From: Cytophagales bacterium
Lineage (GTDB): Bacteria; Bacteroidota; Bacteroidia; Cytophagales; UBA9547
Assembly (NCBI GenBank): GCA_013297755.1
Contig: JAAFIH010000037.1
Span: 1-35,454, forward strand
Length of the DNA stretch: 35,454 bases
Reading direction: 5' to 3'
Below, piece by piece: positions 6,910-34,301 of this stretch (the stretch's first letter is position 1; each line of letters starts with the position of its first letter). The notes under the pieces are model-generated. The model worked only from the letters and a program-made list of their open reading frames with translations, did no database searches and was not told where the DNA came from. The translations under genes and the position numbers were made by a program.

Positions 6910-7021
6910 TAATAACTCCACTTGTTATTAGAAAATAAACTTCAAAAAATAATTTTGAAAGTTATCTCAATTAAATTCCAAATTATATATAGTTTTACCT
7001 AATATTATGTATATAATTTCT

Positions 7022-10000
7022 ATGAAAAAAAATAAAGCACTCATTTTGATATTTTCTTTGGTATTTGGAATTTGTTTTTCACAAGATATTATAGAAGTAA
7101 AATATAGACATTTGAATAGCACTTTAAATGCGTATATCAGAGGAAACAATATTATTATACACGCACCTAACTCTAATAAATTTCTAAATTTAACATGCTC
7201 CACGAATTTAGATTTAGGAACTATTACTGTTCCAGGTATTGGAGAAATGCCTAATCCAAGTATATTTATTGATTATTCTACTGTTGATTCTATTGCATTA
7301 TGTAAATTTGATGAAAACAGTTTCAATTATGTTTTTATAAAAAACTACAAGCTAACAATTCTAACTGAATCTGGAGAATCTTTTGGGATAGAAAAACCAA
7401 TCGTAGATTTTAAATATTTAGCGATTGGTAATATAGAATTATTAAATTCTTCAACAAATTTACCTTACCCAGATTTTAATTTTAAACATTACACGCTAGG
7501 AAATGAAATACATTTAATGGTTAGTGACACTATCAATATTACAAATGTTGCATTGAAATTGAATATATATACAAAAAATATAGCTTCAATAGCAGGTAAC
7601 AATATTTTTGTAAACACTGTAACTAGCTCTAATGAAATAATTGTAACCGAAAAATTAAATTTGAATGATTTACAAAATATTTCTGTAACAGGAATTGATA
7701 AAAAAGTTCGTGTTTTTAAAGTAAAAACCACTACCTTACATTTAAAAAAGAGTCCTAATGCCATAATAGAAAGTTTATCTCTATCAAAAACAATTTCTAT
7801 GTCTGAATACAATAACTTTTATGGCAGGATAATAGATAAAAATATTTATATTGATGCAACTACTGCACTAGGAACTACCGATTTAAGTATTAATGTTCAA
7901 TCAAGTTATTTAAGTGAAGTTTTAATAAACAATCAATATATTAAAAATCAAAACACGCCCTTAGAGATATCCAATTTTTCTTTTACAGGTTCTTCTTTTC
8001 CATTAAAGGTTACAGCACAAGATGGAACTATTGAAAATTATATGGTTTATATCAATATAGTTACTCCAAAAGATCAACCTAAAAGTAGCAAAATTGACAT
8101 CAATAATATCATAGTTGCAAGAAACTACAGTTTTTACCAAAAGCAAGATAACTTTGTTTCATATTTATCATTTTTTAAAGACACCATTTTTTTAGTTATC
8201 AAAAATTTTGAACATGATGAATTTAATACACCTATTAGAACTATCAAGTTATCAGACCTTAAAAATGTCTTTATTGCTGTAAATGACGATAGAAATTTAA
8301 ATTCTAGGGATTTTTATCAAATATTGTCGAGTGTAAATGGAGTATCACTAGATTTAACCACAAGAGTAGACTTAACTAGCAATCCTATTTTGACTGTTAG
8401 GTCTGAAGATGGTTCTAACCAAAAAAATTATGTTTTAAAGCCAATTTTACAAAATCAAGAATTTGATATTAAACCTGAAATTTATGGGATGAATGTTGGA
8501 AAATTTAAAGGAGTTATTCAAGGGAATAAAATTGAGATTCATCTACCATCAAATATGCCTTTAGATAATCTAAATGGGACATTATATATCAGCAATTCAA
8601 TTTTGGTTTATCTAAATGGAATTTTGACTGCACCAAAACAGTATGATGAACAAAACTTTCGAGAATTTCAATCAAATTTTTCAAGTCAAAGAGAACTAAT
8701 TTTATGGAATTTATTAGGTAAAGAGTTCAAGTATCAAATAAATATTATAAACGATTTACCCATAGAAAACCCTCAAGTACAACTTGATTCAACAACTTTG
8801 TTAAAAGAATTTTATATACCAGAATATAGAGGCATTCCTATTGTATATAACTCAAGCTATGAAGGTATTGTTACTTTACCTTTTAATACAGGGAATAAAT
8901 TTATAGGATTTTTTGGTTATCAAAATAACATTAATTTGATAAGTGTTTCTGGTATTCCATATTCCCTTTATAGTGAAAATAATTATACTCAAAATATAAC
9001 TACCACTGGAACTTATCTTGTGAGATATTATGCAGATGCAGGCAATTTCAAGGATTTTAAAATCAGTGTAGTAAAACAACAGCCGCTTAAAAACAATAAA
9101 ATGCTTGATTTTGAGGCCAAAAATATAATTGACAAAACAATTTCAGGTAATAATATACATATACTTTTTGATAGAACTACAAAGCTAGATAATGTAAATT
9201 TATATCTAATTTTATCTAAAGCAAATTATGTAAATAATTATTTTTATTCTGATGATTTGCCATTGAATGTATCAATTAATGGGGTTTTGTTTTTATCAAA
9301 ACTGGATATACATTATTCTAGAGGTCTTACAAATTATTTTTATAGGTCTTTAAATTTAAGTTCCCCTTTGAACATTCAAGTTCAAGCACAAGATTTATCA
9401 GTAGCAACTTATAAAGTTTCTGGTCAAGTAGCAGGTCCTACTTCATATAAATCAAACGAATTAAAATCTATTACTTTTAAACCATATTCCTTTTATAGCT
9501 TAAATGGAATTTCAAGAAATACTACGATTGTAGGAAATAACATTTATGTAAATATTTTAAAAACTGATAACTACTCTAAACTCTTAAAATTAGAAGTTAG
9601 ATCAGGTGTAGGAGCTTCAGCTTTTGTTGATAAATTCCCTATAATTTGCTATCAAAATAATGAAGTTTTTAATTTCTATGATAATTACTTTTACGATTTT
9701 TCAAAACCAGTAAATTTAGATATTTTTGCTGAGAATGGAGATAAAATATCTTATACAATTTATGTTAATTATGTAGATAAACTAGATCCTATTTATCTAA
9801 ATTCTAATGAAATTGAAAGTGTAGAGCCAAAAGATGTTGTACTATATCCTAATCCAGCTAATGGTGATTTTTTTAATATCAGTTTAGAAGGAAATGGAAC
9901 TTTAAAATCTATTTTGCTATTTGATTTATTGGGAAATGTCGTAAAAAATATAAATTCAAATGAAGAGATAGTAGAAATAAATACTTCAAATATGAATAAA

Positions 10001-10069
10001 GGAATCTATTTTGTAAAAATTAGTACTGAAAAATCAGTATTTACTAAGAAACTTATCATCGAAAAATAG
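7022..10069 (+). CDS. Large secreted repeat protein with type IX sorting domain (1,015 aa)
   Basis: The start at 7022 (MKKNKALILIFSLVFGICFSQ) gives a clean signal peptide with cleavage after FSQ; an in-frame ATG 15 nt upstream would only add five residues. The mature protein is almost entirely beta-strand. It appears to contain about seven or eight diverged modules of roughly 100-130 residues, each with a 'GNxI.I' strand near its start and, in several, a 'DG...Y.V.I' strand at its end (for example AQDGTIENYMVYI and SEDGSNQKNYVLK). This resembles cadherin-like/Ig-like surface modules. The last ~75 residues (VVLYPNPANGDFF to KKLIIEK) match the type IX secretion C-terminal sorting domain, so it should cross the outer membrane and be anchored or released. 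An adhesin or matrix role is inference; no catalytic motif is seen. Confidence 0.88.
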   Translation: MKKNKALILIFSLVFGICFSQDIIEVKYRHLNSTLNAYIRGNNIIIHAPNSNKFLNLTCSTNLDLGTITVPGIGEMPNPSIFIDYSTVDSIALCKFDENSFNYVFIKNYKLTILTESGESFGIEKPIVDFKYLAIGNIELLNSSTNLPYPDFNFKHYTLGNEIHLMVSDTINITNVALKLNIYTKNIASIAGNNIFVNTVTSSNEIIVTEKLNLNDLQNISVTGIDKKVRVFKVKTTTLHLKKSPNAIIESLSLSKTISMSEYNNFYGRIIDKNIYIDATTALGTTDLSINVQSSYLSEVLINNQYIKNQNTPLEISNFSFTGSSFPLKVTAQDGTIENYMVYINIVTPKDQPKSSKIDINNIIVARNYSFYQKQDNFVSYLSFFKDTIFLVIKNFEHDEFNTPIRTIKLSDLKNVFIAVNDDRNLNSRDFYQILSSVNGVSLDLTTRVDLTSNPILTVRSEDGSNQKNYVLKPILQNQEFDIKPEIYGMNVGKFKGVIQGNKIEIHLPSNMPLDNLNGTLYISNSILVYLNGILTAPKQYDEQNFREFQSNFSSQRELILWNLLGKEFKYQINIINDLPIENPQVQLDSTTLLKEFYIPEYRGIPIVYNSSYEGIVTLPFNTGNKFIGFFGYQNNINLISVSGIPYSLYSENNYTQNITTTGTYLVRYYADAGNFKDFKISVVKQQPLKNNKMLDFEAKNIIDKTISGNNIHILFDRTTKLDNVNLYLILSKANYVNNYFYSDDLPLNVSINGVLFLSKLDIHYSRGLTNYFYRSLNLSSPLNIQVQAQDLSVATYKVSGQVAGPTSYKSNELKSITFKPYSFYSLNGISRNTTIVGNNIYVNILKTDNYSKLLKLEVRSGVGASAFVDKFPIICYQNNEVFNFYDNYFYDFSKPVNLDIFAENGDKISYTIYVNYVDKLDPIYLNSNEIESVEPKDVVLYPNPANGDFFNISLEGNGTLKSILLFDLLGNVVKNINSNEEIVEINTSNMNKGIYFVKISTEKSVFTKKLIIEK

Positions 10070-10795: not shown

Positions 10796-12100
10796 ATGGC
10801 ATCGTTTGAAGTAAAAGGGGGATTTTCATTAAATGGCGAAATAACGCCACAAGGAGCAAAAAATGAAGCATTAGAGGTGCTTTGTGCTCCTTTATTGACT
10901 GCAGAACCTGTAATTATTCGCAATATTCCTCAAATAAGAGATGTTCTCAAATTGATAGAATTGCTGCAAGATTTGGGCGTAAAAGTAGATAAACTTAATG
11001 ATAACGACTACAAATTTGAAGCCAAAAATGTAAAACTAGACTTCCTAGAAAGCGAAGAGTTTAAGCAAAAAGGAGGCGCCTTGCGTGGTTCTGTGATGAT
11101 AATGGGGCCTCTATTAGGACGTTTTGGAAAAGCCAAAATGCCCAAACCTGGTGGCGATAAAATTGGCCGCAGACGCATGGATACCCATTTTATAGGGTTT
11201 GAAAAACTGGGAGCAAAATTTAATTATGATACTTCAAATAGTTTTTTTGAAATTGATGCATCCAAACTAAAAGGATGCTACATGTTGCTAGACGAAGCCT
11301 CTGTTACTGGCACTGCCAATATTGTACTAGCAGCTGTTTTGGCCGAAGGCAAAACAACCATCTACAATGCAGCCTGCGAACCTTATTTGCAACAATTATG
11401 CAATATGCTCAATAGAATGGGAGCTAAAATAAGTGGTATTGGTTCAAATTTGATAACTATAGAAGGGGTAAAAGAACTCCATGGTACAGAGCATTCCATT
11501 TTGCCAGATATGATCGAAATTGGTAGTTTTATAGGTATGGCTGCCATGACCAAATCTGAAATTACAATCAAAAATGCTCGTGTAGATATGCTAGGACAAA
11601 TTCCTGATGTTTTTAGAAAATTGGGTATAAAATTACAAATCTTAGGAGACGATATTTATATTCCAAAACAAGAACAATACCAACTCGAAACTTTTATAGA
11701 TGGCTCCTCGCTTACTATTGCAGATGCTCCTTGGCCTGGATTTACCCCAGATTTGATTAGTATTGTGCTGGTTACGGCCATTCAAGCCAAAGGTACAGTA
11801 TTAATACATCAAAAAATGTTTGAAAGTAGACTCTTTTTTGTAGACAAACTTATTGAAATGGGTGCCCAAATCATACTTTGCGACCCACATAGAGCCACCG
11901 TTATTGGAATGAATAGAGCTAACAATTTAAGAGGAATTACCATGACATCGCCAGATATAAGGGCAGGTGTAGCACTATTAATTGCCGCCATGTCGGCCGA
12001 TGGCACTAGCATAATCCACAATATAGAGCAGATTGATAGAGGTTATCAATTTATAGATACAAGATTGAATAATTTGGGAGCTAAAATAAGAAGACTGTAA
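10796..12100 (+). CDS. murA: UDP-N-acetylglucosamine 1-carboxyvinyltransferase (MurA)
   Basis: Catalyses the first committed cytoplasmic step of peptidoglycan synthesis, transfer of enolpyruvate from PEP to UDP-GlcNAc. The 434-residue length is normal. Conserved features: Lys22-Asn23 in GAKNEALEVL, the mobile loop at 115-128, an Asp in FTPDL corresponding to the catalytic Asp305 of E. coli, and Arg in SPDIRAG corresponding to Arg397. The loop reads PKPGGDKIGRRR, so the catalytic-loop Cys115 of E. coli is Asp121 here. Natural Cys-to-Asp enzymes (Mycobacterium, Chlamydia) are active but not alkylated by fosfomycin, so intrinsic insensitivity is predicted. I believe this loop is common in Bacteroidota. 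The gene is monocistronic, followed by a tRNA on the other strand. Confidence 0.97.
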   Translation: MASFEVKGGFSLNGEITPQGAKNEALEVLCAPLLTAEPVIIRNIPQIRDVLKLIELLQDLGVKVDKLNDNDYKFEAKNVKLDFLESEEFKQKGGALRGSVMIMGPLLGRFGKAKMPKPGGDKIGRRRMDTHFIGFEKLGAKFNYDTSNSFFEIDASKLKGCYMLLDEASVTGTANIVLAAVLAEGKTTIYNAACEPYLQQLCNMLNRMGAKISGIGSNLITIEGVKELHGTEHSILPDMIEIGSFIGMAAMTKSEITIKNARVDMLGQIPDVFRKLGIKLQILGDDIYIPKQEQYQLETFIDGSSLTIADAPWPGFTPDLISIVLVTAIQAKGTVLIHQKMFESRLFFVDKLIEMGAQIILCDPHRATVIGMNRANNLRGITMTSPDIRAGVALLIAAMSADGTSIIHNIEQIDRGYQFIDTRLNNLGAKIRRL

Positions 12101-12114
12101 AAAAATGCAAAAAG

Positions 12115-12188
12115 TAGCGGGGAGCAGGATCGAACTGCCGACCTTAGGGTTATGAATCCTACGCTCTAACCATCTGAGCTACCCCGCC
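12115..12188 (-). tRNA. tRNA with CAU anticodon, probably elongator Met
   Basis: The minus strand folds into a 74-nt cloverleaf: acceptor GGCGGGG/CCCCGCT (last pair G-U), D stem GCTC/GAGC, anticodon loop TTCATAA, T arm GGCAG-TTCGATC-CTGCT, discriminator A. CCA is not encoded. Anticodon CAU could also be lysidine-modified Ile2 or the initiator. The initiator's mismatched first pair and GGG/CCC anticodon stem are absent, so elongator Met is favoured over Ile2 without certainty. The anticodon stem TAGGA/CCCTA has an A-C mismatch at its base next to the loop (31-39). Confidence 0.93.
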
Positions 12189-12258: not shown

Positions 12259-14958
12259 ATGATAAAAATAGGAATTTTCTTTGGCGGGCAAAGCCGAGAA
12301 CGTGAAATTTCGTTTGCTGGCGGTCGTACCATTTACGATAACCTCAATAAAGATTTTTTTGAGCCAATTCCAATTTTTGTAGACAGTTTAGGTAATTTTA
12401 TACATTTGGATTGGCAATATGTATACAAAGGAACCATTCGTGATTTTTATCCACCCACAGAATTTTACCCTGAATCCGAAAAAAATTACCAATTATATAT
12501 CGAAAGTTTAGGAAATCTTACTACATCAGAAATAGATAAAATAATTTCTAAAGTTGGTACTAGAATCTTTCCACATCAATTTGAAAAAATGATTGATGTG
12601 GCTTTTTTGGTTTTACATGGCCCATCTGGCGAAGATGGTAGTATTCAAGGACTTTTAGAATGGTACAATATTCCTTACACAGGCTCTGGTATATTACCAT
12701 CGGCCATTGGCATTGATAAAATAATTCAAAAAAAAATCATGCAAAATGCAGGATTTTTGGTGCCACAATATCAAATATTACAACAAAATGAAATCAAAAC
12801 AGAAATTTTAAAAGATAATGCTAAAGAATTATTTTTAAAATTAAAAACAACATTAGGTTTACCTTTAGTAATAAAATCGCCAAATCAAGGCTCTTCTATT
12901 GGTGTTTCAATAGTAGAAAAAGATAATTTAATTGATTTTTTAGATGCCATAGACAAAAGTTTTTTTATCGTTAAAATCAAAAAACAAGATTGGATTTCAA
13001 AAACAGATATTGAAAAAAATATTTTTGGACGTGAACTTACTGATATAAGATCAGGAATTGGCCTACCAGTGATTATAAATAATGAAATAGTTTATGCACC
13101 ATCATATTTAATTTCAAAAATAGACTACCATTTTAGTAATAATAATGAGATAATTGAAATAAAAAGTATCCATAGCGAATCATATATATTGATAGAAAAA
13201 TTTGTGAAAGGTAGAGAATTTTCAACTATTGTCATTCAAACAGAAAACGATGAAATCATAGCTCTACCGCCCACAGAAATCATCAAAAAACAAGATTTAT
13301 TTGATTATCGCTCAAAATACTTGCCAGGAATAAGTCGAAAAATAACACCAATAGATTTGCCATTTTCTGAGATTGAAAAAATTGCTAAGGAAACCGAAAA
13401 ACTATTTAAAACCCTCCAATGCAATGTATACGCACGTATAGATGGATTTTATACAGATAATAGAGAAATATTACTAAACGACCCAAATACAACCTCTGGT
13501 ATGATGCCAAGTTCGTTCTTTTTTCATCAAGCTGCTGAAGTAGGTTTGCATCCATCTCAATTTTTAACTTACATTATTTTTCAATCTTTGGTTGAAAGAG
13601 AAAAATCCTGTAAAAATCCTCTCAAAGCAACTCAAATTAAAGAAAAACTAAGTCATTTAATGACCCAAAATATTACTTTAAAATCCGAAAAAATACCCGT
13701 AGCAGTTGTTATGGGTGGATATTCTACCGAACGACACATATCAGTAGAAAGTGGTAGAAACGTGTTTGAGAAATTATTTTCTTCTTCAAAATATTTGCCA
13801 ATACCTTACTTCCTTACAGGCAACAACGATTCGTATGATATTTATCAAATACCTGTAAATATTATGCTCAAAGACAATGCAGATGATATAAAAGATAAAG
13901 TTATAAACCCAAAAGAGAGCCATCAATTTATAAAGAATTTAAGAGAAAAAACAAGAAATATTTTAAATAAATATGCAGATAATATTACTTTTGAATCAAA
14001 AAAATCTAGTATTGAAGAAATATCAAAAATAGTAAAAAGAGTGTTTATTGCACTTCATGGTCGCCCAGGCGAGGATGGTAGTTTGCAAAAAAAATTAGAA
14101 TTACACAACCTTCCCTACAATGGCTCTGGTGTAGAAAGCTCTGCAACAACAATAAACAAATATGAAACAAACGAAATATTACTAAAAAACGGATTTTTAG
14201 TTGCTAAGCATTTACTCATAAATGAATTAGATTGGAATGAAAATAGTAATAATTTAATCAAAGAAATAGAAACAAAATTAAAATATCCTTTCATTGCCAA
14301 GCCACACGATGACGGATGTAGCTCGGCCGTAAAAAAAATAAAAAACCAAGAACAATTATGTGCTTATGCCAACATGATGTTTAGAAAAAACAAAGAATTT
14401 CTGACCAATGAATCAAGCATACTCCAACTAAAACCAACAGAGGAATTTCCACAAAAAACAAGTTTTTTGGTCGAAGAATTGATATTACCAAATGGAGCAG
14501 CTCATTTTCTAGAAATTACAGGTGGTATGCTAACTCGTTTGGATGAAAATGAAAAATTAATATACCAAACATTTGAACCCTCAGAAACATTAGCAAGTGG
14601 AGAAGTACTGACTTTAGAAGAAAAGTTTTTGGCCGGAGAAGGACAAAATATAACTCCTGCAAGATTCTCTAAAGATAAAAACAAGCAAATTGAAATTTCA
14701 AATAAAGTAAGAAAAAACCTAGAAAATGTAGCAAAAAAACTTCAAGTAGTAGGATATTGTAGAATAGATGCTTTTGTAAGAATTTTTGAAAACGATGATG
14801 TCGAAACTATCATCATAGAAATAAACTCATTACCAGGTATGACCCCAGCCACTTGTATATTTCATCAATGTGCTATAAATGGATTGAAACCATATCATTT
14901 TATAGACCAAATTTTAGAATTTGGAGTAAAAAACATATCAACCAACATAAAAACCTAA
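12259..14958 (+). CDS. Tandem D-alanine-D-alanine ligase fusion (two ATP-grasp halves, 899 aa)
   Basis: Two complete Ddl-type units lie in one frame (about 1-445 and 478-899, joined by a Lys-rich helical linker); usual Ddl is 300-370 residues. Half 1: GGQSREREIS with Glu14 (E. coli DdlB E15), HGPSGEDGS, Lys206, Ser212 in GSSIG (S150), omega-loop Lys353-Tyr354 (Y216), ARID with Arg393/Asp395, and DPNTTSGM where Asp408 replaces the usual Glu Mg ligand. It also has a ~70-residue insertion around 240-305. Half 2: GGYSTERHIS with Glu491, HGRPGEDGS, Lys681, GCSSA with Cys687 at the S150 position, EEKF with Phe790 at the Y216 position, CRID, and canonical Glu854/Asn856. Both halves therefore look able to bind ATP-Mg, but the D-Ala-binding triad differs. 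The activity should be D-Ala-D-Ala or a related dipeptide or depsipeptide for the cell wall. It is the first gene of a four-gene operon. Confidence 0.93.
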   Translation: MIKIGIFFGGQSREREISFAGGRTIYDNLNKDFFEPIPIFVDSLGNFIHLDWQYVYKGTIRDFYPPTEFYPESEKNYQLYIESLGNLTTSEIDKIISKVGTRIFPHQFEKMIDVAFLVLHGPSGEDGSIQGLLEWYNIPYTGSGILPSAIGIDKIIQKKIMQNAGFLVPQYQILQQNEIKTEILKDNAKELFLKLKTTLGLPLVIKSPNQGSSIGVSIVEKDNLIDFLDAIDKSFFIVKIKKQDWISKTDIEKNIFGRELTDIRSGIGLPVIINNEIVYAPSYLISKIDYHFSNNNEIIEIKSIHSESYILIEKFVKGREFSTIVIQTENDEIIALPPTEIIKKQDLFDYRSKYLPGISRKITPIDLPFSEIEKIAKETEKLFKTLQCNVYARIDGFYTDNREILLNDPNTTSGMMPSSFFFHQAAEVGLHPSQFLTYIIFQSLVEREKSCKNPLKATQIKEKLSHLMTQNITLKSEKIPVAVVMGGYSTERHISVESGRNVFEKLFSSSKYLPIPYFLTGNNDSYDIYQIPVNIMLKDNADDIKDKVINPKESHQFIKNLREKTRNILNKYADNITFESKKSSIEEISKIVKRVFIALHGRPGEDGSLQKKLELHNLPYNGSGVESSATTINKYETNEILLKNGFLVAKHLLINELDWNENSNNLIKEIETKLKYPFIAKPHDDGCSSAVKKIKNQEQLCAYANMMFRKNKEFLTNESSILQLKPTEEFPQKTSFLVEELILPNGAAHFLEITGGMLTRLDENEKLIYQTFEPSETLASGEVLTLEEKFLAGEGQNITPARFSKDKNKQIEISNKVRKNLENVAKKLQVVGYCRIDAFVRIFENDDVETIIIEINSLPGMTPATCIFHQCAINGLKPYHFIDQILEFGVKNISTNIKT

Positions 14959-14959
14959 T

Positions 14960-15625
14960 ATGAGCGTTGAAGTTACTAAATCTATGCTTTTAGAATTAAA
15001 CTTTAGAGCCATTGATGAAGAAATTTATTTACACGAAGATAAAAAAATAATAATAATTATTACTAAAAATTACAATATAAATATTGCAAACAATTATGAA
15101 AACTTTAGGGTTATAAAATTAGATAATGAAATATTCAAAAATAAGGAAGAAATCATTTTCTCAAGATTAAACTCTATACTAGGTAATAATACAACAATAT
15201 TTGCAAGAAAAACAAAAGTAAAAAGAATAGAAAAAATGGAAGCCCAATTATTTTTAAATCAAAATCATCAACTGGGCTATTCAAACGAATATTATAAATT
15301 AGGTTTATATCATCAAAACGATTTGGTGGCTGTAGCTCTTTTTAGCAAATCTTATTTATTAAAAAATGAAAAACCACCTGTAAGATCATATATTCTTGTA
15401 AGATATGCTTCAAAATTGAATACAAATATTGTAGGTGGAATTTCAAAATTATTACAACATTTTATTCAGTTAAAAGAAGCAAAGCATATAATGACCTATA
15501 CCGAAAAAAATTGGGGATTATCCAACTCTTATGCTAAACTAGGATTTATTAAAGTTGAAAATTATATAGATAAACACAATAAAAATCATTCTCAAAACGA
15601 AAAATGGATTTTAAAAATAGTATGA
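14960..15625 (+). CDS. GNAT/Mom-like protein related to a domain of phage endonucleases
   Basis: The C-terminal ~130 residues resemble the acetyltransferase-fold (Mom-like) domain that follows nuclease domains in many phage endonucleases. Seen signals are EIIFSRLNSILG, then IFARKTKV, then FLNQNHQLG, KLGLYHQNDLVAVALF, a Tyr/Arg-rich strand RSYILVRYASKLNTNIVGG, and YTEKNWGLSNSYAKLGF. In the phage relatives these correspond to the SR...LLG, IYARKC, FL.NH.QG and Y.KLGF blocks. The preceding nuclease domain is reduced to ~50 residues (ending FRVIKLDNEIF), so it is probably inactive. The ATG follows the ligase stop by 1 nt, so it is translationally coupled. Whether it still modifies DNA, or acts on another substrate, cannot be told. 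Confidence 0.65.
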   Translation: MSVEVTKSMLLELNFRAIDEEIYLHEDKKIIIIITKNYNINIANNYENFRVIKLDNEIFKNKEEIIFSRLNSILGNNTTIFARKTKVKRIEKMEAQLFLNQNHQLGYSNEYYKLGLYHQNDLVAVALFSKSYLLKNEKPPVRSYILVRYASKLNTNIVGGISKLLQHFIQLKEAKHIMTYTEKNWGLSNSYAKLGFIKVENYIDKHNKNHSQNEKWILKIV

Positions 15626-15638: not shown

Positions 15639-16403
15639 ATGACAAAAAAAAATAATTTATATATTATTCTTTTTGGATTTTTTCTCACTAATGCACTTTT
15701 AGCAGAACTCATTGGTGTTAAAATATTTTCATTAGAATCAATTTTGGGCTTGCAACCATTATCGCTTTCTATTTTTGGGATTGATAATTTGTCTTTAAAT
15801 TTATCAGCAGGAGTCATTCTTTGGCCAATCGTTTTTATTGTTTCTGATATAATAAACGAATATTTTGGTCCAAAAACTGTAATGAAAATAAGTTATATCA
15901 CTGCTAGCTTAATATGTTTTGCATTTTTGGTGGTATATACAGCTACCAAATTGCCACCAGCCGATTTTTGGATTAAATTAAACCAAAAAGATAACATTGG
16001 CAACGATTTTAATATTAATTATGCCTACTCCTTACTATTTGGTCAGGGTCTTGGTATAATTATTGGCTCTTTGATAGCATTTTTGGTTGGCCAACTGATA
16101 GATGCAGTTGTTTTTCAAAAAATAAAAAAACTTACTAAAAATAAATTTATTTGGCTGAGAGCCACAGGTTCTACCATAGTTTCGCAGTTGATAGATAGTT
16201 TTGTGGTACTAACTATAGCTTTTTATGTCTTTGGTAATTGGAGTTTTCATTTAGTTTTAGCAGTAGGAATAATCAACTTTATCTATAAAATAACCATTTC
16301 TTTGGTGATGATACCAGTTTTGTATGGATTGCATTTTATTATAGATTCTTACATTAGCAATGAAACTACTCATCCAACAAATAAGCTCTCAGATAATGAA
16401 TAA
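15639..16403 (+). CDS. Queuosine precursor transporter, YhhQ family
   Basis: An inner-membrane protein of the VUT/DUF165 (YhhQ) family, which imports 7-cyano- or 7-aminomethyl-7-deazaguanine for queuosine in tRNA anticodons. About six hydrophobic segments are visible, with family motifs LTNALLAELIGVKIF, VIFIVSDIINEYFGPK-like (IVFIVSDIINEYFG) and ATGSTIVSQLIDSFVV. Length (254 aa) is slightly above the usual 220-240. It starts 13 nt after the Mom-like gene and overlaps the next gene by 8 nt, so it belongs to the ligase operon. The family assignment is strong; the precise substrate is inferred. Confidence 0.9.
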   Translation: MTKKNNLYIILFGFFLTNALLAELIGVKIFSLESILGLQPLSLSIFGIDNLSLNLSAGVILWPIVFIVSDIINEYFGPKTVMKISYITASLICFAFLVVYTATKLPPADFWIKLNQKDNIGNDFNINYAYSLLFGQGLGIIIGSLIAFLVGQLIDAVVFQKIKKLTKNKFIWLRATGSTIVSQLIDSFVVLTIAFYVFGNWSFHLVLAVGIINFIYKITISLVMIPVLYGLHFIIDSYISNETTHPTNKLSDNE

Positions 16404-17331
16404 AAGTAAGATATATGGATTTTTAACATTAATGCGACCTGCAAATATCCTAACAGCTTGGTCTAATGTGGTTGTAGGTGCAAGTATTGCGTATGGATTA
16501 TCTCAGAATATAATTTTACCTATATTTGAATGGGTTGAAATTCTAAATTTAAAATTACTTTTTCTCATACTTTCAACAAGTGGTTTATATGGTGGAGGAA
16601 TAGTTCTAAATGATTTTTTTGATGCTGCATTGGATAAAATTGAACGTCCAGAAAGACCCATCCCAAAAGGAATCGTAACTAAAAGCGAAAGTCTATATTT
16701 AGGATTATTTTTATACTCCTTAGGTGCTATTTTTGCATTTTTAGTAAATTATACATCTGGATTTATATCAATTTTTATTATTTTTCTTACTATCATATAT
16801 AATAAATTTTCAAAACATCATGCAATTTTGGGACCAATTAATATGGGGATGTGTAGAGCTTTTAACTGGTTGCTTGGCATGTCTGTTATTGAAACTTTTT
16901 ATCCAACATTTATTCTATGGGCTTGTATTCCACTCATATATATAGCTGGTATAACTTATATAAGTAGAGCAGAAGTTCATTTTGATAAAGGCAATAATTT
17001 AATTGTAGGGCTTGGTTTATACCTATTTATAATTTTGGCTATTGCACTTGCTGCACTAAGTAAAAATGCAAAAATGGGAATTATTATTTTTTTTATGCTT
17101 ATTCCTTTTATAGTATTTTATTTTAATATGGTTTTGAAGCCTGTTTTATTAGCAATAAATGGAAATGGAAAGCCAGAATTAATCAGAAAATCGGTCAAAT
17201 CAGCAGTAATTGGTGTAATATTGGTAGATGCCTCTGTAATTGTTATTTATCAAGGATTTATATTTGGTTTTATAATTTTATTGCTTATTCCTATATCAAA
17301 ATATATTTCTCAAAAATTTGCGGTTACCTAA
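16396..17331 (+). CDS. UbiA-family prenyltransferase, EboC-like
   Basis: An integral membrane prenyltransferase. From the ATG at 16396 (MNKSKIYGFLTLMRPANILT; an upstream in-frame ATG at 16360 would only lengthen the overlap) it shows about eight to nine hydrophobic segments. The aspartate-rich motif NDFFDAALDKIERPERPIPKG carries the Mg-diphosphate ligands, and a second region covers IYISRAEVHFDKG. The sequences ERPERPIP and GMCRAFNWLLGMS are characteristic of the EboC branch, found in the ebo (eustigmatophyte/bacterial) operons. The start codon overlaps the yhhQ-type stop by 8 nt. No eboA, B, D, E or F is seen here, so it is an orphan in this window or the rest lies elsewhere. The lipid product is unknown. 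Confidence 0.85.
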   Translation: MNKSKIYGFLTLMRPANILTAWSNVVVGASIAYGLSQNIILPIFEWVEILNLKLLFLILSTSGLYGGGIVLNDFFDAALDKIERPERPIPKGIVTKSESLYLGLFLYSLGAIFAFLVNYTSGFISIFIIFLTIIYNKFSKHHAILGPINMGMCRAFNWLLGMSVIETFYPTFILWACIPLIYIAGITYISRAEVHFDKGNNLIVGLGLYLFIILAIALAALSKNAKMGIIIFFMLIPFIVFYFNMVLKPVLLAINGNGKPELIRKSVKSAVIGVILVDASVIVIYQGFIFGFIILLLIPISKYISQKFAVT

Positions 17332-17370
17332 TCTTATTTGTAAGTATATATGTATATACAAATTAATCTG

Positions 17371-17399
17371 AAAAAAAAATCCCACAAATGTTGTGGGAT
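17371..17399. terminator. Bidirectional-looking hairpin between convergent genes
   Basis: A 9-bp stem, ATCCCACAA / TTGTGGGAT (17379-17387, 17391-17399), closes a 3-nt loop and is preceded by nine As, which become a T-run on the minus strand. It lies ~47 nt past the EboC-like gene and ~170 nt past the convergent crtI-like gene; the minus direction has the better T-tract. Confidence 0.6.
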
Positions 17400-17568
17400 A
17401 TTTAATTGTTCATCATTACTACTCTACTAAAAGTTTCTTAAAATATTTTTTTATAGCAATAAATCAATATTTATTGCTGTATTAAATTTGATTTTGTGTC
17501 AATTATTTGAATAATATTACAATTATGCAAAAATTAATTGTATTAAAAAAATAATTTATAGATTATTT

Positions 17569-19050
17569 TTATTTTTTTTTAGCTTCCATATTTATAATTT
17601 CTTTTGCAGAAAGCTCACCTGATATAAAACTAGGTGGAACTCCAGGTCCAGGCACTGTAAGTTGACCAGTAAATACGAAATTTGATAGTTTTTTGTGAAT
17701 CATGGTCGGTTTTAGAGGTCCTGTTTGCAAAAGTGTATTTGCCAATCCATACGCATTTCCCTTATGAGCATGATAATCTGCTATAAAGTTTGAAGCCGCA
17801 AAATCTCTTCTATAAACGATATTATCTTTAAATTTTATACCAATTTTATTTTCGATTCTAGTAATAGTTTTATTAAAATATAATTCACTAATTTCTTTGT
17901 TTTCGATTAATCCAGGAGCAGTTGGGATTAAAATAAACATATTTTCCATACCTTGAGGAGCCACTGAAAAATCTGTCATTGATGGAACAGAAACATAAAA
18001 CAATGGATTTTGGGTCCAAGAAGGATTTTTATAAATCTCATCGGCATGTAAATTGAAGTCTGCATCAAAAAATAAATTGTGGTGAAGCAAGCCAGATACT
18101 TTTTTGTTTATACCTAAATAGTATAACAAACTAGATGGTGCCATTTTTCTATTTTCCCAGTACTTTGAATCGTATTGTTGAAATTCTTTAGGTAAAATCT
18201 TACTATCAATATGGTTGTAATCAGCAGACCCAACGACATAATCACTTGGAAATGATTTATCAATAGTTTCGACTGACATTACAGTATTATTACTAATCGA
18301 AACATTTATAACCTCTTGATTAGTATAGAATTTTACACCTAAATTTAAAGCAATAGTCTCCATAGCTTTGACTATTTCGTACATTCCTCCCATAGGATAC
18401 CAAGTTCCGAGTACAATATCAGCATAGTTCATTAAACTATACAATGCTGGCGTATGAGATGGTCGTTCGCCTAAAAAAAGTACAGGAAACTCTAATAATC
18501 TTACGATTCTAGAATCTTTAAAATATTTTTTTATATATGTAGACATATCTGTAAGCAAATGTAGCTTAAAAAGTGCTTTTATTACTGTGCTATCTACATA
18601 TTCTAAGAGCGATTTTCCTGGCAAATGCACAAATTTACCAATACCCACGTTATATTTATACTCTGCTTCTGCCAAAAAAGACTTTAATTTTTGGCTACTT
18701 CCTGGCTCAACAGATTCGAAAAGTAGATATAACTCTTCTAAACTGGCAGGGATGTCCCAGTGTTGTGTCTGATCCCAAACTACTTTGTAAGATGGGTCGA
18801 GCCTAGTTAATTGATAGAAGTCTGAAGATTTTTTTCCAAAAAAACCAAAAAACCTTTCAAATACATCTGGCATCCAATACCAACTTGGGCCCATATCAAA
18901 AGTAAAACCCTGAGCCTGAAATTGGCGAGCACGACCTCCAATAGAACTGTTTTTTTCTAAAATGGTAACATCAAAACCAGCTTTTGCCAAAAAACAAGCA
19001 CTCGATAAACCCGAAAAACCAGAGCCAATAATTATTACTTTTTTACTCAT
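17569..19050 (-). CDS. Phytoene desaturase family FAD-dependent oxidoreductase (CrtI-like)
   Basis: A carotenoid-type desaturase/isomerase. The N-terminal Rossmann motif IIGSGFSGLSSACFLAKAG with Glu at the end of the next strand (ILEKNSSIGGRARQF) binds FAD. DMGPSWYWMPDVFERFF matches the CrtI substrate-side signature. The C-terminal segment FVFTGQLTVPGPGVPPSFISG is the typical CrtI tail. Length (493 aa) is normal. Its likely role is desaturation of phytoene or a later C40 or C30 carotene for membrane pigment. No crtB or other carotenoid gene is adjacent, so the pathway step cannot be fixed from context. The gene is divergent from the DUF3109 gene. Confidence 0.93.
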   Translation of the reverse strand: MSKKVIIIGSGFSGLSSACFLAKAGFDVTILEKNSSIGGRARQFQAQGFTFDMGPSWYWMPDVFERFFGFFGKKSSDFYQLTRLDPSYKVVWDQTQHWDIPASLEELYLLFESVEPGSSQKLKSFLAEAEYKYNVGIGKFVHLPGKSLLEYVDSTVIKALFKLHLLTDMSTYIKKYFKDSRIVRLLEFPVLFLGERPSHTPALYSLMNYADIVLGTWYPMGGMYEIVKAMETIALNLGVKFYTNQEVINVSISNNTVMSVETIDKSFPSDYVVGSADYNHIDSKILPKEFQQYDSKYWENRKMAPSSLLYYLGINKKVSGLLHHNLFFDADFNLHADEIYKNPSWTQNPLFYVSVPSMTDFSVAPQGMENMFILIPTAPGLIENKEISELYFNKTITRIENKIGIKFKDNIVYRRDFAASNFIADYHAHKGNAYGLANTLLQTGPLKPTMIHKKLSNFVFTGQLTVPGPGVPPSFISGELSAKEIINMEAKKK

Positions 19051-23390: not shown

Positions 23391-26300
23391 ATGAAAAAAA
23401 TTTTAACAACATTAGGGCTAATTACTTGTATTTCAAGCTATTGTGCAAACATACCAACGCTAGGAACGATAACTAATGATAAAATAAATATTGGGACAAA
23501 AGACAATTATATTATAGTTGGCAACATTACAGATGGTGATATAGGGATTATCCAAAATATAACTGTAACTGCAATTTCGAGTAATAATTCAATTTTGAGT
23601 GTTACAAGCGTTAATTATACACAAGGTCAGACTTTTGCTATTGTTAAAGTTAAAGAATTTGGAACAGCTGGATTTGCCACTATTGGTTTTACAGCCAAAG
23701 ATATAAATGGTTCTACCACCAAAAACTTTAATGTAAATGTGGGCGATTTTTACAAAAAAGGTAACATATCTAGTGTATACGATTTTCCTTTTTGGACTTG
23801 CAATATTCCTAGTCTAAATGAATTTTCGCAATTAGATTCTTTACTTCCTGCTTCAGAAAATACACTTTTGGATGGAGAAAATGGCGTTTATAAAAATTTA
23901 AGTCTTGCTAATGCTTTTACAATGCAATCCATGTATGGAGTTGGAATTATAAATAGGTTGAAAGGATATTTTACCCCAACAGCCACAGGATTTTATTTAT
24001 TTGAAGGTATAACTCAACAAGGAGTGCAATTTGATTTGTATAATTCTGATGAAATTTCTTCTAATAACATTTATAAAACATTTAAAAAAACTATAAATTT
24101 TGATAATACCCAAAATAAAATATCATTTTTGGTAACACTTACTGGGGGACAAACTTATGGCTATATGGCAGCAAATTATAATTTTGATGTTAGGTACTTT
24201 GCCATTAAATATGCTTATCTTGGCTCAATAGAACCTTCTGTTACATTTAGAAATGGAAACGGATTTTTTAATACCCCTACAGTTGTGGGTGCTACCATGC
24301 AACTCATGCAAAACAACCAAATTACACCTTACAACGATATTGATAGACCAACTATTGTAGGGATGCTGCAACAGGATAGAAAATCTAAAAACTCTGTCTC
24401 TTTGGTTTGGAATAAAGCCTTAGACCCCAATCCTGAAACAAATTCTGGTTTAGATGGATATAATATTTATGTAGATGGTGTAATGTTTAAACACCTTAAA
24501 AACCCAACAGATACAAGTTTTATACTCAAAAATTTAACTTCTAATACTGATTACTCGATTTTTATAACAGCTATTGATAAAAACGGAAACGAATCTTTGC
24601 CAAGTAATACAATTCAAACTAAAACTTATGATTTGGAAACTACTCCACCCAATCCCCCCACAATTCTTAATGTAGTAGAGCTTGGTGATATAAGCGTAAA
24701 AGTAAGTTGGTCGGGTGCATCAGATAATGCATCAGGTATTTATGGGTATCGTATTTTTGTAGATAATATACTGTATAATTCTGACACTCTTAATTCTAAT
24801 TCAATAGTTTTAAAATCTTACTATCCACAGACTACACATAGTTTCAAAGTACAAGCCATTGATGGAAATTTTAATGCCTCAGCATTTAGTGCAAGTACCA
24901 ATTTTACAACTAGTGCTTACAATCCATTGGCTACTTCGCCTGGAGTAAAAAAAATATCTGTGAATATTGAAAAAGAATTTATTGGTAAAATAGACGGTTT
25001 TGGTATCAACATGGGGGCTGACGACTACTCTCAAAGTAGGATTGATGAAGCCAAAAAACTTAATACTGGATTAGTAAGATGGGGTGGACTTGATAAGAAC
25101 TCTATTTCTTACAATTCAGCATCCAATGGCAGCAAGACTTATGCCAAATTTATCAATTTTGCAAACAAAGCAGATGCAGCAGCTAGTATATCAATAGGTA
25201 CAGACGCAACTCCTTTGATAGATTGGAGAGACGAATCAAATACAAATGTGATGTTTGGCAACACAAGTGTACAAATGAAAGTAATGGAACGCACGGCTCA
25301 ACAAATGATAGCTTATTTGTTTGCTCCAGATTCAATGGCTACAAAAAATGTGGCTGGAGCAGAATTTTTCCCATTCCATGCTGATGTGCAAAAAAGATTA
25401 AACGAAGGATTTAGACAATCTACATTTACTGGTTTTAATTCCGTTTTCAAGGGTTTAATTATTGAATTTGGTAGTGAACCCTGGGGAGGAACTACCAATG
25501 GAACAATATCTCTTGATTTTAATGCAGATGGCTTTGATGATTATATAGTTTATGGCCAATGGTGCAGAACACTAGCTAAAGCATTTAAAAACAGTCCTTA
25601 TTTTGATTCGACAAAAGTAAGATTGGCCTACTCGGGACGTGAGCCACAGCCTAGCAACAGTTTTAATTTAACTCAAAATTTACTTACAGGAAATGACGAT
25701 GATAAAGTAGATATGATAACATTAGGTGGATATTTAGAAGGAATACCAAATTATAGTAATACTATGTCTAAAGATGAAGCCGAAAAACAATATTATAAAA
25801 AAAGTGTTGAAAATGTTTTTAAAAACATTAAAGGAATGTATGAAACAATGGATTTAGATTTTTCTTTAAGAAAAAAACAACGACCTTTTTATTTTTATGA
25901 AACAGCTTTTACTTCAAACAACTACACTCAAAGATTTGGACAAGCAGTTGTTTTAACAGATTATTTACTTACATCTCACAAAGCTGGTGCTTATTATCCA
26001 TCAATTTTTTCACTTGATATTGCTAATCAATGGAGTATTTTGAATAATAATGTTCCAAATCCAATGTACCATTTTGCTCAAATTATAAATAACATAACCA
26101 AAGGTAATAGAGATATATTAAAAACAAATAATATTACTAACCAAAGATTAAGGAACAGTTTAGGAGAAATAATTTCGGCTTCAGGAGAGTTTTTAGAGCC
26201 AGTTTCTACAAATATATATCATAAAAATGGTGTTTATTCATTAATTTTAATTAACAGAGATTTTGATGATGACTATCAAATACAACTAAATTTCCCACTT

Positions 26301-29159
26301 GGTATGTTGCCAACAGCTTCTGTTTCTGGTAGATTTTTTACAATCACTACTTCTGGCAATTTTAGCTCTAATTTATCTACAATTTTGGGTACTTCAGCTA
26401 GTTTGTTTGACAAAATGTTGGTTAATGTACCAAAACATGGGATGGTAGTTTTTACTTTTTTGGGAGAAATACTCAAAGAAAATTACCAAAAACTTGGATA
26501 TACCTCATATAACAGCCCTACATTAATATCAACAAAACTTACAATACCAAGCAATCCAAATGGTAATGTATTGAGCCTCCAAAATGGTAGTATTTTCGTA
26601 AACACTACTATTAGTGGGGGTAGAAATAATATGACTACTGTAGGCTGGAATATCGTAAAATCAAGCAATAATATGATTTTTGATAGTTTTTATACTGATA
26701 ATTCTTTACAAATAACTGCTACAAGCTGTCTTAGCAATGGGATACTTACAATAACTAATTTTTCGTTAAACAATCCTAATTTGAAAAATACTAACATTAT
26801 TACAATTACTGGGCAAATAGTTTGTTTACCAAACCTCACACAAACAATTACTGGTATGTTTTCTAATCAATCAATAAATTTATCTTCAAATTCTTTAGTT
26901 TTTAATGTTTCAGCGAGTTCAGGATTAACAGTAACTTTGCAAAGTAATAATATTTCGATAGCAAACTTTGTTGGAAACACTTTAAATTTATTAAATACAG
27001 GTGTAGTTACAATATCAGCATCTCAGATTGGAAATAACAATTATTTACCAGCCAAAACTGTATTTACGATTTTAACCATTACAGGAGGCTCAAACCTCAC
27101 ACCCCAAACCATCAACATATCCCCTATCACAAACAAAACTACCAACGATTCACCTTTCAATATACAAGGTTCGGCAAGTTCTGGATTGGTGGTTTCTTAC
27201 CAAATATTGTCTGGCCCTGCTAGTGTTTCTGGAAATCAAATTACACTTAATGGCACTCCTGGTACTGTATCTGTAAGAGCAACCCAATCGGGAAATAGCA
27301 CTTACTCTCCTGCTTCAAGTGTAGATTTTTCGTTTAATGTTATTTCTCCTACTTTGCTAAATCAAACTATTTCTTACACATCTATCCCAAGCAAAACTAC
27401 CAACGATTTACCTTTCAACATACAAGGTTCTGCAAGTTCTGGGTTGGTGGTTTCTTACCAAATATTATCTGGCCCTGCTAATGTTTCTGGAAATCAAATT
27501 ACACTCAATGGCACTCCTGGTACTGTATCTGTAAGAGCAACCCAATTAGGAAACAGCATTTATGCTCCTGCTTCAAGTGTAGATTTTTCGTTTAATGTTA
27601 TTTCTCCTACTTTGCTAAATCAAACTATTTCTTTTCCTGATATTACTTCCAAATCTACTTCTGATGCTCCATTTATACTTAATGCTACTGCCTCATCTGG
27701 CTTAAATGTTGTTTTTACCCTTATTCAAGGCCCTGCAAATTTGTCTGGCAACACCATTACACTTAATGGAAATTCAGGTATTATCATTGTTAGGGCTACA
27801 CAATCTGGCAATAGCATTTACAACCCAGCTTCTGTTGTTGATAAATTTATTTTAGTAAACAATGCTAGTCTATTAAACCAAAATATTACTTTTCCTGCCA
27901 TACCTGATCAAATCAGTGGTAGTGGAAGCATCACTTTGGGTGCAACCGCAAGTTCAAATTTGCAAGTAGATTATGAAGTTGTTTCTGGTCCTGCAAGTAT
28001 TTTTGGAAATAATCTAATTCTTACTTCAGGCTTTGGTGATGTAACTATAAGAGCAAGTCAATCTGGCAACAGTTTCTATAACCCAGCTCAATACATCGAC
28101 CGTATTTTCAACGTATGTCAAAACATTGGTGCTAACACAGTAACAATCTCTAATACAGGCTCTTTATCGTTTTGCTTACCACAAAACATTACGCTTACTT
28201 CTTCTATCAACAACCCTACAATGAAGTGGAGCAATGGCTCTACTAACCCTAGTATTGTGGTTCAAAATTCGGGAACTTATACCCTAACTGTGGGTTCTGG
28301 ATTATGTAAAGTTGTGTCGAATAGCTTGCAAGCAACCGCAAAAAATCCTATCATCACTCCTATATGTATGGTAACAGTAGACGAATCTACAGGCAAAAAT
28401 AAAGTAATATTTGAAAAACCTTCAGGCTTCGTTACCTCTATCACAAGTTGGAAAATTTACCGAGAAAGTTCTGTGGCAAATCAATTTTTATTACAAAGCA
28501 ATCTTACTCTTTCAAATCTAAGCGAGTATGTAGATATGACTGCAAACCCTCAAAATCAAGCTTTTAGATACAAACTCGAAACACGAGATAATATATGTAA
28601 TACAGACAATCAAAGTGCTGCACATAAAACTATGCACCTTACAATCAACAAGGGACAAAACGCCTCTACTTGGAATTTGATTTGGACTCCTTACGAGGGC
28701 ATACCATTGGCAACACATAGAATATATAGAGGCACAACAGCTACTAATCTTACTTTTATTGCAGATGTGGCAGGTTCGCTTAGTTCGTACACTGATGCTG
28801 ATGCCCCAGCGGTAAACACCATTTATTACGTAATAGAACTAATAACAGGCCAAACATGCACCCCTACTGCACGTACAGAATCTTACACAACTATACGCTC
28901 TAATGTGGCCGAAGCATCTACTACATCAAGCAGTTCAAAACAAATTTTAAGTAATAAAGTAAACATTTATCCAAATCCAAACAATGGTACTTTTACTGTA
29001 GAAACCAGTGAATTGATGACAAAAGATAACATCAAAATATGTGATTTACTTGGCAAAATGCAACCTTTTGAATTAGTAAACAATGAAATAACCATCTCAA
29101 AATCAGGTCTATACTTTGTACATATTGGTAATAAAGTTACAAAAGTAGTAGTGGAGTGA
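23391..29159 (+). CDS. Giant secreted multidomain protein with glycosidase-like domain and type IX sorting domain (1,922 aa)
   Basis: Domain order: signal peptide (to about residue 19); beta-rich N-terminal region with a PA14-like segment (about 130-300); two fibronectin type III modules (about 320-415 and 420-510); a glycosidase-like (alpha/beta)8 domain (about 520-930) with IDGFGINMGADDY, Glu696 in EFGSEPWGG as candidate acid/base and Glu837 in FYFYETAF as candidate nucleophile, followed by a beta-sandwich; then Ig-like repeats (about 1150-1575, four of them 86-residue units); a Cys-containing linker; two further modules; and a type IX C-terminal sorting domain (about 1858-1922, VNIYPNPNNGTF). 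It resembles clan GH-A enzymes (GH39/51/30-like) without an exact family match. Probably cleaves an extracellular polysaccharide. It has its own upstream region after the receptor's terminator and a strong hairpin after the stop. Confidence 0.9.
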   Translation: MKKILTTLGLITCISSYCANIPTLGTITNDKINIGTKDNYIIVGNITDGDIGIIQNITVTAISSNNSILSVTSVNYTQGQTFAIVKVKEFGTAGFATIGFTAKDINGSTTKNFNVNVGDFYKKGNISSVYDFPFWTCNIPSLNEFSQLDSLLPASENTLLDGENGVYKNLSLANAFTMQSMYGVGIINRLKGYFTPTATGFYLFEGITQQGVQFDLYNSDEISSNNIYKTFKKTINFDNTQNKISFLVTLTGGQTYGYMAANYNFDVRYFAIKYAYLGSIEPSVTFRNGNGFFNTPTVVGATMQLMQNNQITPYNDIDRPTIVGMLQQDRKSKNSVSLVWNKALDPNPETNSGLDGYNIYVDGVMFKHLKNPTDTSFILKNLTSNTDYSIFITAIDKNGNESLPSNTIQTKTYDLETTPPNPPTILNVVELGDISVKVSWSGASDNASGIYGYRIFVDNILYNSDTLNSNSIVLKSYYPQTTHSFKVQAIDGNFNASAFSASTNFTTSAYNPLATSPGVKKISVNIEKEFIGKIDGFGINMGADDYSQSRIDEAKKLNTGLVRWGGLDKNSISYNSASNGSKTYAKFINFANKADAAASISIGTDATPLIDWRDESNTNVMFGNTSVQMKVMERTAQQMIAYLFAPDSMATKNVAGAEFFPFHADVQKRLNEGFRQSTFTGFNSVFKGLIIEFGSEPWGGTTNGTISLDFNADGFDDYIVYGQWCRTLAKAFKNSPYFDSTKVRLAYSGREPQPSNSFNLTQNLLTGNDDDKVDMITLGGYLEGIPNYSNTMSKDEAEKQYYKKSVENVFKNIKGMYETMDLDFSLRKKQRPFYFYETAFTSNNYTQRFGQAVVLTDYLLTSHKAGAYYPSIFSLDIANQWSILNNNVPNPMYHFAQIINNITKGNRDILKTNNITNQRLRNSLGEIISASGEFLEPVSTNIYHKNGVYSLILINRDFDDDYQIQLNFPLGMLPTASVSGRFFTITTSGNFSSNLSTILGTSASLFDKMLVNVPKHGMVVFTFLGEILKENYQKLGYTSYNSPTLISTKLTIPSNPNGNVLSLQNGSIFVNTTISGGRNNMTTVGWNIVKSSNNMIFDSFYTDNSLQITATSCLSNGILTITNFSLNNPNLKNTNIITITGQIVCLPNLTQTITGMFSNQSINLSSNSLVFNVSASSGLTVTLQSNNISIANFVGNTLNLLNTGVVTISASQIGNNNYLPAKTVFTILTITGGSNLTPQTINISPITNKTTNDSPFNIQGSASSGLVVSYQILSGPASVSGNQITLNGTPGTVSVRATQSGNSTYSPASSVDFSFNVISPTLLNQTISYTSIPSKTTNDLPFNIQGSASSGLVVSYQILSGPANVSGNQITLNGTPGTVSVRATQLGNSIYAPASSVDFSFNVISPTLLNQTISFPDITSKSTSDAPFILNATASSGLNVVFTLIQGPANLSGNTITLNGNSGIIIVRATQSGNSIYNPASVVDKFILVNNASLLNQNITFPAIPDQISGSGSITLGATASSNLQVDYEVVSGPASIFGNNLILTSGFGDVTIRASQSGNSFYNPAQYIDRIFNVCQNIGANTVTISNTGSLSFCLPQNITLTSSINNPTMKWSNGSTNPSIVVQNSGTYTLTVGSGLCKVVSNSLQATAKNPIITPICMVTVDESTGKNKVIFEKPSGFVTSITSWKIYRESSVANQFLLQSNLTLSNLSEYVDMTANPQNQAFRYKLETRDNICNTDNQSAAHKTMHLTINKGQNASTWNLIWTPYEGIPLATHRIYRGTTATNLTFIADVAGSLSSYTDADAPAVNTIYYVIELITGQTCTPTARTESYTTIRSNVAEASTTSSSSKQILSNKVNIYPNPNNGTFTVETSELMTKDNIKICDLLGKMQPFELVNNEITISKSGLYFVHIGNKVTKVVVE
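27105..28115 (+). repeat. Tandem in-gene repeats, 258-bp period
   Basis: Within the 1,922-residue gene, units begin at 27105, 27363, 27621 and 27879, exactly 258 bp (86 codons) apart; the fourth is shortened to ~79 codons. Units 1 and 2 are near-identical in DNA (long runs such as the QGSASSGLVVSYQIL and NGTPGTVSVRATQ coding segments), units 3 and 4 have diverged, and a still older unit precedes unit 1. Each ends in a TQSGN.Y.PAS motif. Recent duplication or gene conversion between units 1 and 2 is likely. Confidence 0.9.
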
Positions 29160-34255: not shown

Positions 34256-34263
34256 TTTAGTTA

Positions 34264-34271
34264 TAATTTTG
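34264..34271 (+). promoter_or_regulatory. dut: Likely -7 element of dut
   Basis: TAATTTTG matches TAnnTTTG exactly, 30 nt upstream of the dut ATG and inside the 46-bp gap between divergent murF and dut. The upstream TTG box at 34246-34248 would give only a 15-bp spacer, shorter than usual. Confidence 0.45.
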
Positions 34272-34301
34272 AATGATAAAATTTGCTGTAAAAATAATAT
34301 A

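Follow-up and report, generated by a model that had tools for sequence, protein, structure and literature searches.

Gene and protein architecture

The window examined in this work is the complete 35,454-nucleotide stretch of contig JAAFIH010000037.1 from a Cytophagales bacterium (assembly GCA_013297755.1). It contains a gene encoding two D-alanine--D-alanine ligases (Ddl) fused head to tail in one polypeptide, whose N-terminal and C-terminal halves are referred to below as half A and half B (Table 1). The single uninterrupted frame of 899 residues announced by the original prediction was retrieved without internal stop. Two different active sites are fixed in this protein family: that of half A would be the housekeeping one, and that of half B may have acquired an altered substrate preference. 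Pfam searches located Dala_Dala_lig_N in two stretches of the protein and Dala_Dala_lig_C in four, both halves carrying both domains. The protein also passes the TIGR01205 model (370.6 bits, cut-off 245.65), and the name given by family models to the whole tandem is plain D-alanine--D-alanine ligase.

The AlphaFold2 (AF2) model of the full protein, calculated from an alignment of 61 sequences with the window protein placed first, displays a mean predicted local distance difference test score (pLDDT) of 87.6 and a predicted template modelling score (pTM) of 0.89, the latter value making the predicted arrangement of the two halves confident as a whole. The model was realigned to 999 solved chains, each solved entry being reported with its better-matching half only. 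The best 50 rows are Ddls, with Z scores of 30.9-38.0. The top row is that of half B on the Leuconostoc D-Ala:D-Lac ligase, 1ehi_A (Z 38.0, 22% identity), the next half-B rows following at Z 35.7; the best solved match of half A is 6u1d_B (Z 36.5). Because residues ~1-450 and ~474-899 each align to solved Ddls on their own, the whole ATP-grasp fold is predicted for both halves. Together with the Pfam domains, these alignments uphold the earlier description of two complete ATP-grasp ligases in one protein. Both halves might pair as the covalent heterodimer proposed originally, through an interface resembling that of Ddl dimers (helices alpha3-alpha5 and alpha8). The accompanying statement that the halves are alike only in the family motifs has to be abandoned, as 121 of 399 aligned residues are identical and the alignment score lies 46 standard deviations above 300 shuffles. 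Mean conservation falls to 0.41 over residues 448-477, as compared to 0.69 in half A and 0.70 in half B.

Table 1. Coordinates of the tandem ligase gene, of its parts and of neighbouring features in the window.
Feature	Position	Strand	Remarks
Tandem Ddl-Ddl gene	12259..14958	+	899 residues, ATG to stop, stop included
Half A, residues 1-450	12259..13608	+	Complete Ddl-type ligase; Tyr354 and Ser212 present, Asp408 replaces DdlB E270
Linker helix between the halves, residues 454-477	13618..13689	+	DSSP of AF2 model; poorly conserved
Half B, residues 478-899	13690..14955	+	Complete Ddl-type ligase; ATP/Mg residues intact, substrate pocket altered
Cys687 of half B, DdlB S150 position	14317..14319	+	Alignment of fused proteins and ordinary Ddls
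Phe790 of half B, DdlB Y216 position	14626..14628	+	Y216F mutant structure 1iow aligns at this residue
Asp408 of half A, DdlB E270 position	13480..13482	+	Alignment of fused and truncated A proteins
murA	10796..12100	+	TIGR01072, 453 bits, cut-off 392.7; context, outside the fusion
tRNA-Met	12114..12188	-	Separates murA from the ligase gene; context
221-residue open reading frame	14960-15625		Starts two bases past the ligase stop
Queuosine-precursor-type transporter (Vut_1), EboC-like UbiA protein, bifunctional phytoene desaturase gene	15639-19050	- (phytoene desaturase)	Downstream of the ligase gene
Mur-ligase-family gene	32984-34324	-	

Active sites of the two halves

Residues are numbered below as in E. 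coli DdlB. The active sites were compared over 102 distinct fused proteins, of which 80 come from named loci and 22 from other genomes; identical sequences were left out, as were loci whose best piece covers fewer than 800 residues of the query. Half A displays Ser at S150, Tyr at Y216 and Asp at E270 in all 102 proteins; with the same constancy, half B displays Cys at S150, Phe at Y216, Glu at E270, Asn at N272 and Thr at S281. The non-identical active sites proposed originally are therefore real, with fixed and different residues at the S150, Y216 and E270 positions. The 25 ordinary Bacteroidota Ddls compared all carry Ser150, Tyr216, Glu270 and Ser281. The Asp of half A, at a position which we take to be a metal ligand in DdlB, is also found in the eight truncated A proteins that were aligned (8/8; see below).

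The combination of Ser at S150 and Tyr at Y216 that defines the dipeptide (Tyr) type is present in half A and absent from half B throughout (102/102 each). The mark of Phe-type D-Ala-D-Lac ligases, an omega loop with Phe in the place of Y216, is present in half B, and 1iow, the structure of the Y216F mutant of DdlB, aligns onto this Phe. In lactic acid bacteria, as described in an extract of PMC5996685, Phe versus Tyr at this site decides between depsipeptide and dipeptide activity. A second alignment with 25 rows of half B displays Leu at Y210 and Y212 in all of them, and Cys at L282 as well as at S150 in 24, the lone row without Cys at S150 being that of genome G097. The possibility of half B being a dead enzyme through residue loss is not supported: E15, H63, E68, K97, K144, S151, E180, E187, K215, R255, D257, E270 and N272 are kept in 25/25 rows, among them E15, K97, K144, E180, E187, K215, R255, D257, E270 and N272, which we take to be the ATP/Mg and catalytic residues of DdlB. 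The latter are all identical in half A of the window protein, except for the Asp at E270.

Both halves are under strong purifying selection and half B is as constrained as half A. In a set of 61 proteins, thinned to at most 86% identity, 96 of the 450 positions of half A and 91 of the 413 positions of half B are invariant. The median ratio of nonsynonymous to synonymous substitution rates (dN/dS), obtained from 115 close pairs that are not independent, amounts to 0.102 for half A and 0.073 for half B. Such low values, combined with the invariant positions, indicate that half B is not decaying.

Distribution and origin

The genome of the window (G000; 4.24 Mb, 70 contigs, 100% complete by tool) was searched for a separate single-domain ddl using PF01820, and none was found: only the two halves match. 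PF07478 also matches three other contigs of this genome (C8, C17 and C67), which have no PF01820 match and for that reason are taken to encode ATP-grasp proteins of other kinds. The search was extended to 98 genomes, the window's own counted in, and to a 392-genome sample of the phylum, the counts in both sets resting on genome tables and best rows. Full-length fusions are encoded by 55 of the 98 genomes (with the frame in two pieces in G022, G038 and G067), half A with a remnant of B by 19, split genes by three and half B only by one. The remainder is made up of 13 genomes with an ordinary single Ddl, two with incomplete copies (at a contig edge in G003, broken in G086) and five with no match. 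Exactly two PF01820 matches were obtained in each of the 55 fused genomes.

The best 80 of 398 loci from named genomes, selected by score, all contain the fusion, as expected for best scorers. By title they are mostly Cytophagales (Hymenobacter, Pontibacter, Rufibacter, Marivirga and others), together with a few metagenome-assembled genomes (MAGs) labelled otherwise. Among the matches listed for the phylum sample, full-length fusions occur in G000, G021, G038 and G053, which belong to the same order, and in G269, from another order within the class; two of the 392 genomes are without any match. As judged from these searches, the tandem protein appears to be the only Ddl-type ligase in many members of one Bacteroidota order. 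That of G269 was possibly acquired by horizontal transfer. It is part of a 1200-residue frame (contig C5, locus L160) in which Ddl-Ddl runs on into a transmembrane segment and PASTA-like repeats, the latter named by eye, and which fuses two genes that adjoin in most relatives. One contig titled as a Bifidobacterium breve MAG (L036, CALPQG020000300.1) encodes a Cytophagales-type fusion at 60% identity; this label or the binning is probably wrong. On plasmids, no close relative of half B was found, the best identity being <60% among 487 records.

A maximum-likelihood tree was computed from 84 proteins, comprising 32 A, 25 B, 25 ordinary Bacteroidota Ddls and E. coli DdlA and DdlB. Half A forms one clade (support 100/99), half B another (100/100), and both are joined in a clade of their own (100/96) apart from the ordinary Ddls. 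The A halves of the truncated proteins, 8 of 19 being placed, also group in one clade (100/100). The two halves are deeply diverged, each in its own clade, in agreement with the earlier view that the duplication is not recent. The joint clade is most simply explained by one ancient duplication, and the sequences would most simply derive from one ancestral Ddl that was duplicated and fused once, B being lost later in one lineage.

Proposed function and alternatives

The reading that we favor, held with moderate confidence when taken as a whole chain, is that of an ancient ddl duplication whose fused copies have diverged, A keeping the housekeeping function and B remaining active with an altered substrate preference. 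The individual steps differ in strength. Half A would very probably join two D-Ala, as the housekeeping D-Ala-D-Ala ligase. Half B, as its residues suggest, is probably still a working ATP-grasp ligase. That its pocket would give a second or strongly altered specificity, most simply for a second substrate, is an evenly balanced proposition based on the combination of Cys at S150, Phe at Y216, Leu at Y210 and Y212, Thr at S281 and, in most cases, Cys at L282. With its phosphate and metal machinery intact, half B would couple D-Ala with a partner that is either a second one or differently preferred, and fusion would hold the two activities near each other and at the same dose.

Natural truncations bring in another role for half B, rather unlikely in our judgement, namely that of a partner in a pseudo-heterodimer: A alone would make D-Ala-D-Ala, B would bind ATP and perhaps D-Ala and would mainly stabilise or tune A, and the remnant would perform what is left of this role. 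The departure of half B from the canonical Ser/Tyr pair is in line with this proposal, and so is the fate of the truncated proteins, which were found at 19 loci (L113-L115, L117-L121 and L166-L176). All 19 retain a remnant in which 87-121 residues align with the N-domain of B. No more than 33 residues come after it, and neither the HG..GEDG block nor the ATP-grasp part is present in any of them. One truncated protein was modelled, and its remnant is predicted with confidence to fold (mean pLDDT 89.3, pTM 0.90). Its dN/dS is 0.12-0.35 in seven of eight close truncated pairs, where that of A is 0.06-0.10, six of these seven pairs stemming from four loci; in the eighth pair, which is saturated, the values are 0.41 for the remnant and 0.44 for A. 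In the pairs measured, the remnant evolves faster than half A and below neutrality. A function as canonical dimer interface was rejected: the usual interface of Ddl, as described in an extract of PMC6899670, includes helices alpha3-alpha5, which according to our own mapping lie past the HG..GEDG block, in the segment that the remnants lack. Conversely, a scaffold would not require all the ATP/metal residues kept by half B, nor a median dN/dS below that of A, and two further facts speak against a pseudo-heterodimer: B is a separate gene elsewhere in 11 of the 21 genomes of family f21, and genome G097 keeps B with no A found. Each of the 19 genomes with a truncated B has one PF01820 match, so that half A alone seems to serve; by this count, the sequences suggest that half A suffices in 19 of the 98 genomes.

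Family f21 comprises 21 small genomes. The fusion is present in six of them (G059 and G487-G491). The two halves are separate, apparently intact genes at different places in the 11 already mentioned (G030, G045, G072, G477-G480, G482-G484 and G486), far apart on one contig in G045, G477, G482, G483 and G484. In G485, A is intact and B lies in two frames, reflecting either a decayed gene or an assembly error. Only B is found in G097, and neither half in G481 and G492. Linkage is therefore not essential everywhere, and these gene arrangements suggest that covalent linkage is dispensable. G097 keeps five Mur_ligase_M and two transpeptidase matches, from which it follows that B presumably supplies the dipeptide there; its B, carrying Ser and not Cys, may suffice for the ordinary wall precursor. 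This assembly is 96% complete in about 30 contigs and a missed A is possible. In the 19 f21 genomes with B, the S150 position is occupied by Cys in 17 and by Ser in two (G097 and G480), and the Y216 position by Phe in all 19. Both Ser-form proteins (L197 of G097 and L196 of G480) belong to 0.7-Mb genomes in which half A is either not found or altered in its motif. In half A of G480, the DPNTTSGM motif is changed at positions where the 102 fused proteins do not vary; the catalytic residues checked are kept, and this half may still work. The Cys-to-Ser difference may represent one event and two cases are few. The Ser form of these two genomes fits the idea that Cys serves a task for which A has to be present alongside.

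Reciprocal losses of this kind, A standing alone in 19 genomes and B in G097 with its Mur ligases and transpeptidases, are what would favor two redundant D-Ala-D-Ala ligases in one chain, the altered residues of B being tolerated without any new product. This we consider improbable, as redundant copies would drift, yet the Cys, Phe and Thr of half B are fixed in 102/102 proteins and the half is tightly constrained. The Ser found in G097 and G480, as opposed to the Cys of the other 17, also looks as if the Cys form were unsuited to the ordinary job, with the reservation that both cases may go back to one event.

Equally doubtful is the proposal that B is a depsipeptide-type ligase, making D-Ala-D-Lac or another D-Ala-X, permanently fused to a dipeptide ligase. 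Taken by analogy, the Phe would suggest a D-hydroxy acid as the partner of B. Peptidase_M15, a family that includes VanX, was considered as a partner of B and rejected: it is present in 19/19 truncated genomes, in 10/13 with an ordinary single Ddl and in 22/55 fused genomes, two of the 22 matches being weak fragments and kinship being ignored in these counts, and the trend is opposite to the co-occurrence with B expected from a Van-like scheme. This distribution, the extra pocket changes, the dispensability of B and the occurrence of the Ser form alone in G097 argue against a simple scheme of the Van type. Finally, an assembly or sequencing artefact joining two genes, the danger pointed out in the original prediction, has a negligible probability, because the same fusion in 55/98 genomes, single-contig assemblies such as G013, G018, G053 and G081 included, rules out one bad join.

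A number of observations weigh against an ancient duplication with a diverged and active half B, and should be kept in mind when this preferred reading is used. The ligase part of B is lost in 19 genomes, and its product is dispensable there; in G073, which is one of the 19, another frame of 316 residues matches the query in part (E 6.5e-11). Searches of the 0.7-Mb genome G097 with PF01820 and PF07478 retrieved no protein besides B, and the trend of Peptidase_M15 is also unfavorable. The 24 rows of half A in the second alignment are not wholly fixed, H63 being retained in 22 rows and K144 and S281 in 23 each. The Phe of B stands amid several other pocket changes and the rule established in lactic acid bacteria may not apply. 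The top rank of 1ehi may possibly be due to its length of 360 residues and not to specificity. The stem branches of the tree are long (2.81 for B, 1.26 for A), and the A+B clade has to be read with care since long-branch attraction may underlie it.

Genomic setting

The gene had been described as heading an operon without any other cell-wall enzyme. None was indeed seen among the downstream genes, but murA lies directly upstream on the same strand. Since an opposing tRNA-Met separates them, murA and the tandem ligase gene are probably not co-transcribed. The 221-residue open reading frame following the ligase gene has no Pfam or NCBIfam match at E 0.001; by eye it looks acetyltransferase-like, which is a guess. 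Two large proteins of the window, encoded at 7007-10069 and 23391-29159, carry Por_Secre_tail sorting domains, which are a mark of type IX secretion cargo, and the latter adds a fibronectin III domain.

The fused gene is followed on its own strand, at a median distance of 84 bases, by a homologue of a transmembrane PASTA-type protein in at least 66 of the 80 named loci, a lower bound because some loci have short flanks. This homologue is the nearest downstream frame of at least 110 residues in 61 of those 66 loci. The naming is based on matches to PF03793 obtained immediately after the fused gene in G007, G013, G015 and G018. The genome of the window has a three-repeat PASTA frame on another contig (G000:C36), away from the ligase gene. 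Within the flanks of 175 loci, no match at E 1e-6 was obtained for murA, the 221-residue frame, Vut_1 or EboC adjoining the fused gene elsewhere, and the same search at E 10 produced chance-level matches only, among the matches listed.

Relation to known ligases and significance

The tandem protein shares, in both halves, the domains and fold of single-domain Ddls (E. coli DdlA/DdlB; TIGR01205, PF01820 and PF07478), half A sharing their Ser and Tyr as well. It differs from them by its two copies, by the Asp for E270 in A and, in B, by Cys for S150, Phe for Y216, Leu for Y210 and Y212 and Thr for S281. Half B has the Phe at the Y216 position in common with Phe-type D-Ala-D-Lac ligases such as LmDdl2 of Leuconostoc (PDB 1ehi), as presented in an extract of PMC5996685. 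This likeness is one of sequence and model, and B is only 22% identical to that enzyme, has further pocket changes and is fused to a Tyr-type copy. The resistance ligases of the VanA/VanB/VanC type belong to the same superfamily. An assignment to this type found no support, the NCBIfam Van models matching the tandem protein below cut-off (VanA 160.5 against 775, VanB 153.5 against 750 and VanG 254.3 against 495, with 25 of 33 families listed). The MurC-Ddl fusion known from Chlamydia (NF011171) is another case of a Ddl within a larger cell-wall fusion, with a Mur ligase as partner there and a second Ddl here; this model gives 192.5 bits on the tandem protein, far from its cut-off of 1015. Among the matches listed for open-licence PMC papers, none concerns a tandem or fused Ddl by its title or the start of its abstract. 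The word "tandem" in an extract of PMC4814524 designates tandem alanines and not a tandem Ddl.

Ddl, cited as a target of D-cycloserine in an extract of PMC5717164, is a textbook enzyme, and the tandem form is the only Ddl found in over half of the sampled genomes of the order. Annotation of the whole protein as a plain D-alanine--D-alanine ligase hides its second site. This site is altered at the very position which, in other ligases, settles whether a dipeptide or a depsipeptide is made, which leads to a clear prediction about the cell-wall chemistry of environmental bacteria. Fusion, fission, loss of either half and the Cys/Ser difference constitute natural experiments on a duplicated enzyme diverging while tied to its twin. 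If the improbable depsipeptide reading of B is true, the Cys/Phe pocket would mark a second product, and it would be partly given up, with Ser for Cys, in reduced genomes where B does the work of A. A single polypeptide would then provide much of a Gram-negative order with two types of stem-peptide end, or with a second D-Ala-X product.

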